A DNA stretch of 64,000 nt from Solirubrobacter pauli (GTDB lineage: Bacteria > Actinomycetota > Thermoleophilia > Solirubrobacterales > Solirubrobacteraceae). The notes below the pieces were generated by a model. The model was given only the letters and a program-made list of their open reading frames with translations, had not been told where the DNA came from and searched no databases. Made by a program: the position numbers and the translations under genes. Below, piece after piece: positions 48,572-48,929 of this stretch (positions within the stretch are counted from its first letter, which is position 1; each line of letters begins with the position of its first letter). The DNA lies in assembly GCF_003633755.1 (NCBI RefSeq), contig NZ_RBIL01000001.1:1721426-1785425 (forward strand), in the 5' to 3' direction.

Positions 48572-48579
48572 CCCGCGCC

Positions 48580-48627
48580 AACGGCAACGGCAACGGCAAC
48601 GGCAACGGCAACGGCAACGGCAACGGC
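48580..48627 (+). repeat. Tandem hexanucleotide repeat (AACGGC) x8
   Basis: Eight perfect AACGGC units lie 8 bp after the subtilase stop and end right at a TGA in the frame that reads Asn-Gly. Variable copy number would be expected. Confidence 0.95.
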
Positions 48628-48628
48628 T

Positions 48629-48710
48629 GACCACACCCGCGGGCGCCGCGTCAAGCAATTCATGCCCCGGCGTGGGCGGAGACCGGTGTGGTCGTCAGGA
48701 ATTGCTTGAC
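48629..48710. repeat. Interleaved inverted repeats (A-B-A'-B' order)
   Basis: GACCACACC (48629-48637) pairs with GGTGTGGTC (48685-48693), and GTCAAGCAATTC (48650-48661) pairs with GAATTGCTTGAC (48699-48710). The two pairs cross each other, the order of a pseudoknot. As DNA, each long arm extends as GTCAAGCAATTC-nTG, like inverted protein-binding sites. Confidence 0.7.
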
Positions 48711-48742
48711 CCGTCGCGGCGGGCGTGGTGTGTGCGGGTGAG

Positions 48743-48907
48743 CCGGGTTCCCCGGACTGTGGAACGCGTTCGCGTTCCCCGGGCCCATGGCGAGGCCCGA
48801 AAGCGTGGGTGGGGTCGGAAACATGCGCATAGCGAACCTTTCCGACCGCACCCCCCTGCACCGACGGTCCCTCAGGCTCGAACCGCGGTGAACGCCTGGG
48901 CGTTCAC
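48743..48907. terminator. Series of hairpins in the convergent intergenic region
   Basis: Between the subtilase (stop 48571) and the stress protein (stop 48930) lie CCGGG-TTC-CCCGG (48743-48755), GGAACGC-GTTC-GCGTTCC (48761-48778), GGTCGGAAA with TTTCCGACC (48813-48821/48839-48847) and GTGAACGC-CTGG-GCGTTCAC (48888-48907). Terminators for both flanking genes are the simplest reading. No gene is seen in the 358 bp. Confidence 0.5.
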
Positions 48908-48929
48908 ACAGTGCCGTTGCCGTCGCCGC

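Follow-up and report, generated by a model that had tools for sequence, protein, structure and literature searches.

What lies between a subtilase gene and a universal stress protein gene of Solirubrobacter pauli that gives so many hairpins to so short a gap? In the window (the whole stretch of 64,000 nucleotides that was analysed), the subtilase gene (forward strand, stop at 48571; matches PF00082) and the Usp gene (reverse strand, stop codon 48930-48932; matches PF00582) converge on a 358-bp gap, 48572-48929. A preliminary description had counted at least five hairpins there and two inverted repeats in crossing order, had judged this more than two terminators require, and had proposed either a structured RNA or, at the level of DNA, a pair of inverted binding sites.

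Results

Five hairpins were located (48630-48729, h1; 48743-48755, h2; 48761-48778, h3; 48807-48853; 48888-48907), and the folding energy of the gap lies below that of all 100 dinucleotide shuffles on both strands (z -4.21 forward, -5.73 reverse). The 9-bp pair (48629-48637/48685-48693) and the 12-bp pair (48650-48661/48699-48710) are exact, and their crossing is real in the window copy. The 12-bp arms are, however, more simply read as the inner stem of a single imperfect hairpin of about 100 nt, the mismatched h1, than as two inverted binding sites. At the gathering score, Rfam matched no family in the window except three tRNAs. A simple sigma-70 scan of 48400-49100 found no promoter-like site (other promoter types fall outside such a scan), and the same interval holds 0 sites at which a GC hairpin is followed by a T-tract, no hairpin near the gap having one after it.

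Counting the 12-mer GTCAAGCAATTC genome-wide, as had been proposed, finds the exact sequence in the window copy only, though diverged copies exist; the count is misleading because the letters of the stem change in matched fashion between copies. One-mismatch matches gave two further arm pairs at the 49-bp offset seen in the window and a third with an offset of 24 bp. When the whole gap was searched as DNA against the S. pauli genome, 63 rows came back to E = 10, the top paralogue matching at 90% over 174 bp. From this genome, 21 units were extracted and aligned, giving an imperfect hairpin of 27 pairs and, from it, a covariance model (R1). With a cutoff of 59 bits, R1 identifies 24 oriented units in the 7.1-Mb genome, spread over 16 loci; the weaker rows fall mostly on the same places, opposite strand. 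A weak match elsewhere in the window (34580-34665, reverse strand; 24.9 bits, E 0.004) is probably due to chance.

Units occur in five of the seven Solirubrobacter genomes and in neither Ca. Solirubrobacter pratensis (G002) nor G005. No strong R1 match was found outside the genus in 54 relatives or elsewhere in the order in 225 genomes, two sets that partly overlap; these scans, like that of the genus, used strict filters and scored few candidates per genome, so that absence means no strong unit. The palindromic repeat family so far appears confined to Solirubrobacter. Our unit set comprises 83 oriented units from 54 loci (S. pauli, G000, 16; S. phytolaccae KCTC 29190, G003, 23; G004, 12; G001, 3); loci were sampled in G003 and G004, which hold at least 23 and at least 12. 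These are the rows above 59 bits among 168 R1 rows, the rest being mostly opposite-strand readings of the same places, together with three short fragments and the weak window match. For 66 of the 83 units, the nearest relative outside the unit's own element lies in the same genome (25.7 expected), which would fit amplification or homogenisation within species. The nearest neighbour is the partner unit in 0 of 58 cases, a figure near chance expectation that proves little alone.

The covariation check that had been proposed gave a strong signal in the h1 stem. Across the 83 units, 91.2% of stem cells are paired and the letters vary in step (for example, AAGCAATTC/GAATTGCTT, AAGAAACCCG/CGGGTTTCTT, and AAGTCATTTG/CAAATGACTT). 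Cells changed on both sides number 149 against 41.8 ± 4.8 in shuffles, a value reached by 0 of 500, in a control that leaves relatedness in place; the stem covariation score is 0.198 against 0.062 in shuffles and at most 0.049 for slid partners. Two measures are less striking, namely pairs with two-sided changes (10 against 7.9, reached by 7 of 500) and pair types (21 against 18.8, reached by 46 of 500). Outer stem columns 6 and 12 are mostly unpaired, and GTCAAG/CTTGAC inside the stem is nearly invariant. Among the units caught by pattern, matched variation is seen in h2 and h3 too, with a few mismatched forms (h2: GAGG/CCCTC 15, CCGG/CCCGG 11, CCGG/ACCGG 10, GCGG/CCCGC 9; h3: TGAACGC/GCGTTCA 15, GGAACGC/GCGTTCC 14). 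The judgement that the gap exceeds the need of two terminators holds, and two of the three refuting conditions set in the preliminary description fail, since the stem covaries strongly and other genomic copies exist. The pseudoknot did not survive: the 9-bp crossing helix forms all nine of its pairs in one of 45 long-loop copies and covaries no better than shuffles, and a conserved pseudoknot was therefore rejected.

Two units above 59 bits are present at 29 of the 54 loci and a single one at 25. All 29 pairs face inward and measure 355-632 bp across; further hairpins occupy the spacer, and no gene was called between paired units at any of these 29 loci. When end types were defined from h2 and h3 after inspection, 26 of the 29 pairs had one end of type 1 and one of type 2, both from a single class (B in 10, A in 8, and C in 8), the exceptions being two 1-1 pairs and one mixed pair; most elements thus classified would have two different ends. 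The outer edge of class A consists of (AACGGC)n, then TGA or CGA and nCACACC. The window copy contains the following features, each given with its basis.

48580-48627, forward strand: (AACGGC)8 array, the expanded outer edge of the left unit (sequence; other edges of the 83 units).
48628-48735, forward strand: left terminal unit, dispersed and covarying, with hairpin h1 (R1 match of 86.1 bits, as a member of the R1 seed; covariation).
48743-48755, forward strand: small hairpin h2, CCGG-GTTCC-CCGG (other units have the matched variants GAGG/CCCTC and GCGG/CCCGC).
48761-48778, forward strand: h3 of end type A1, GGAACGC...GCGTTCC (sequence; end-type comparison).
48807-48853, no strand assigned: middle mosaic hairpin (inverted-repeat search; genome search for similar hairpins).
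48888-48907, reverse strand: h3 of end type A2, GTGAACGCC...GGCGTTCAC (inverted repeat; comparison with loci L039 and L045).
48912-48929, reverse strand: AACGGC-like outer edge of the right unit, adjoining the Usp stop codon (sequence comparison).

Most other class A edges have one to three AACGGC hexamers, against eight here. The right unit lacks h1 and h2 and retains, of its hairpins, h3 alone. Judged by comparison with other copies, the window copy is an element with one intact end, on the subtilase side, and an eroded one. Relatives of the middle hairpin stand alone at three places in S. pauli (C2:2042504-2042559, C1:3685996-3686044, and C1:3866654-3866705; L054-L056), where R1 lists no unit. 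Another hairpin family, of the GGTCA-CTTGACC...GGTCAAGTGACC type, occupies convergent junctions L303, L307, and L319 of G001 and lies within elements too, on the downstream side of units L145-, L147-, and L125+.

Genes were called with a codon-usage caller trained on 19 long open reading frames of the window, not taken from annotation. Leaving out three of the 54 loci without a called flank, 32 of 51 loci lie between convergent genes, 16 between tandem and 3 between divergent genes. In a background of 464 kb of S. pauli (the window, hence including the element's own junction, plus L251-L270), 73 of 394 adjacent gene pairs are convergent, giving a binomial p of 4e-12; when the background is restricted to gaps of 100 bp or more (9 of 73 convergent), Fisher's p is 4e-9. 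Both values are optimistic, since the loci come from several genomes and are partly related by descent. Units often lie close to gene ends: 25 of the 64 that face one start 23 nt or less from its stop codon, and where the two are nearest, nothing but parts of the AACGGC edge separates them (TGA-ACGG, TAA-CGG). By our own gene caller and rule, 19 of the 83 units face no gene end in the nearest 600 nt. Single units beside tandem genes (nine cases) show both orientations and no clear preference.

Background gaps of 30-300 bp were also folded; none of the convergent ones holds an R1 unit. In this small sample, z is below -2 in 10 of 14 convergent gaps, against 16 of 88 tandem (p 6e-6) and 3 of 46 divergent ones (p 1e-6), and several of the convergent gaps are simple symmetric hairpins. 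One hairpin type, TAAAGGGGTCAG-CCCCTTTA, is common to three convergent gaps (L255:5893-5929 and L255:12223-12259 in S. pauli; L304 in G005) and is possibly a recurrent simple bidirectional terminator. By our gene calls, background convergent pairs mostly have no gap, the median of -4 nt corresponding to stop codons that overlap by four bases.

Sister species hold full, eroded, and empty or replaced versions of the same junctions. At the subtilase orthologue, S. phytolaccae has a complete unit pair adjoining the gene; G001, Solirubrobacter sp. CPCC 204708 (G006), and G004 have apparent stem-deleted remains (Usp is not confirmed as the right neighbour in G004); G005 has a plain gap of about 50 bp; and in Ca. 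S. pratensis, read by eye, the stop codons overlap. R1 finds no unit in orthologous junctions L150, L151, L153, and L154. Where S. phytolaccae carries further elements, S. pauli has TAG abutting CTA and no element (L127), an unrelated near-perfect hairpin instead (L122), apparent edge remnants (L118 and L119), or its own element (L117, equivalent to L042). End types disagree between S. pauli and S. phytolaccae at the subtilase (S8)-Usp junction and between S. phytolaccae and G004 at L119/L142; they agree at L117/L042. The disagreements suggest, but do not prove, that a single junction has seen insertion or inversion repeatedly. No clean case of target duplication was seen at the junctions compared.

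The transposase family sought as a partner was Y1 (PF01797). A single Y1 (RAYT-like) gene was found in S. pauli (L061:1400-2023; C1, about 2721.8-2722.4 kb), flanked by two copies of a different palindrome, TAAACGTCCAGGACGTTTAA, unrelated to the element. Of the 13 Y1 loci in the genus, 10 were scanned and none has an R1 unit (best score 17.5 bits); the other three lie in G006, with scores that match scanned places in G001. G005 has two Y1 genes and no units. Given the absence of linkage at these 10 loci and the other palindrome in S. pauli, we rejected a RAYT as mobiliser.

Discussion

We consider it probable that the gap is a partly eroded copy of a mosaic palindromic repeat, REP/BIME-like and specific to Solirubrobacter, whose hairpins now serve as a two-way terminator or 3'-end protector. 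Comparison among the copies shows dispersal, maintained pairing, different paired ends, a preference for convergent genes, and presence or absence at orthologous junctions. A full element would be an asymmetric, inward-facing pair of imperfect-hairpin units (end 1 ... end 2) with hairpins between, and the (AACGGC)n outer edges of class A would often directly abut the neighbouring gene's stop codon. The element may have spread by a duplicative mechanism, perhaps one acting on single-stranded hairpins. Between two stop codons the hairpins would act in RNA, terminating transcription from both directions or protecting the 3' ends of both genes' transcripts. We infer that hairpins between facing stop codons serve as two-way ends because convergent gaps free of the element are themselves rich in hairpins; the element would be a large dispersed version of such ends, and it probably serves as a two-way transcription terminator or mRNA 3' end. 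Against this stand the missing T-tract, the 16 tandem and 3 divergent loci among the 51, and the mostly gapless background convergent pairs; because of the last, a hairpin is not required at a convergent junction. The reading is also weakened by the failure to find a mobilising enzyme at the Y1 loci scanned and by the absence of a clean target duplication at the junctions compared.

It is possible, though we do not favour it, that the palindromes are selfish or neutral: they would land anywhere and survive mainly at gene 3' ends, where they do no harm, with the hairpin kept for a copying enzyme that reads single-stranded DNA and with no terminator role. The 3'-end placement and the rarity of divergent loci would follow from tolerance alone, erosion is common (as the single-unit loci indicate), and two species of the genus manage without a unit. 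However, the unrelated strong hairpins in other convergent gaps suggest that a hairpin has a role there, and elements or their remains persist at one orthologous junction in five of seven genomes.

More doubtful is an extension of our preferred reading, in which the element would be a mobile, directional gene-end cassette, a covarying hairpin element that specifically targets convergent stop-codon junctions whichever way round it lies. It would supply replacement stop codons (TGAACGGC/TAACGGC edges) together with a bidirectional terminator without T-tract. Gene ends would then be modules that the genus exchanges without recourse to any RAYT.

We think it unlikely that the element is a MITE, descended from a transposon by deletion and dependent for its movement on a transposase that recognises the terminal units and acts in trans. 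The inverted related ends, their spacing, the dispersal, and the presence or absence at junctions would all suit one, but the paired units enclose no called gene, their ends are of different types, and target duplication was not noted at the junctions compared; the search for a partner covered PF01797.

There is little to recommend a role at the level of DNA, in which gyrase, a nucleoid protein, or a replication or segregation factor would bind the inverted arms. Such a role would account for the near invariance of GTCAAG/CTTGAC, but the matched changes at other stem positions indicate that pairing and not fixed letters is maintained, and the copies are few and absent from two species of the genus. 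A structured (pseudoknotted) RNA that is expressed and works in trans, or one that regulates the subtilase and Usp genes in cis, is highly improbable despite the covarying stem, given copies beside different genes (for which a locus-specific non-coding RNA was rejected), a crossing helix that is not conserved, and the outcome of the promoter scan and the Rfam search.

Apart from correcting an attractive pseudoknot reading, the analysis offers a natural test: since junctions in sister species are full, eroded, or empty, they could distinguish REP-like palindromes that are selected as gene ends from those merely tolerated, and they could also test how placement next to stop codons arises in a deep actinobacterial lineage.

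Bidirectional terminators are strong symmetric hairpins located between the two stop codons of convergent genes. The Solirubrobacter element resembles them in position and in its strong symmetric hairpins; it differs in having no T-tract, in being much longer, and in being repeated and dispersed.

REPs, as passages of Di Nocera et al. (2013, PMC3733652) describe them, are extragenic palindromes of 20-40 bp that form inward or outward pairs, often heterodimers, and are found for the most part between unidirectional and convergent genes; the convergent copies of two genomes lie mostly less than 20 bp from both 3' ends, and a GTAG REP often provides a stop codon with its end. Like these, the Solirubrobacter units are extragenic, palindromic, paired, and near convergent 3' ends and stop codons. 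In the broad sense of REP/BIME, we found dispersed extragenic palindromes with maintained pairing, in inverted pairs with mosaic spacers that contain hairpins. Unlike classical, high-copy REPs, the units are 83-110 nt long with about 27 pairs and mismatches, number 24 in 7.1 Mb, and belong to elements of 355-632 bp with extra hairpins; they also have a different edge, are limited to the genus, and show no link to a RAYT. A CGTC-REP, by the definition in the same passages, has an unpaired CGTC at one end, a stem of 8-9 bp, and a loop of 4-5 bp. CGTC(A/G)A occurs in 80 of the 83 units, but its GTC pairs with GAC within a longer stem (82 distinct rows, at most one wobble). GTAG, the end motif of GTAG REPs, occurs in 2 of the 83 units, or in 4 when 15 nt are added on either side, and the RAYT gene flanked by the same repeat that marks GTAG-REPs and REPINs was not seen at the Y1 loci scanned.

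BIMEs are described (PMC2817692) as mosaics of REPs in alternating orientation. The Solirubrobacter element is likewise built from inverted palindromic units with other motifs interposed; it differs in the sequence and size of its unit and usually has one pair. The Yersinia palindromic sequence, RPE, and RUP are larger interspersed repeats (100-170 bp), palindromic or inverted, genus-limited, and dispersed, according to passages of PMC2229807. The likeness to these is one of description, and covers size, limitation to a genus, and dispersal; set beside them, placement at convergent junctions and stop codons is the striking trait of the Solirubrobacter element. Among the matches listed in the literature on palindromic and intergenic repeats, REPs, BIMEs, RAYTs, and terminators, there is no report of such repeats in Solirubrobacter, a name that is not mentioned in PMC12306157 (name search) or in those passages of PMC2229807. 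The element thus behaves as a repeat of the known REP kind, and it is set apart as a distinct variant by its size, mosaic organisation, edge, and lineage and by the absence of a RAYT link at the loci scanned.
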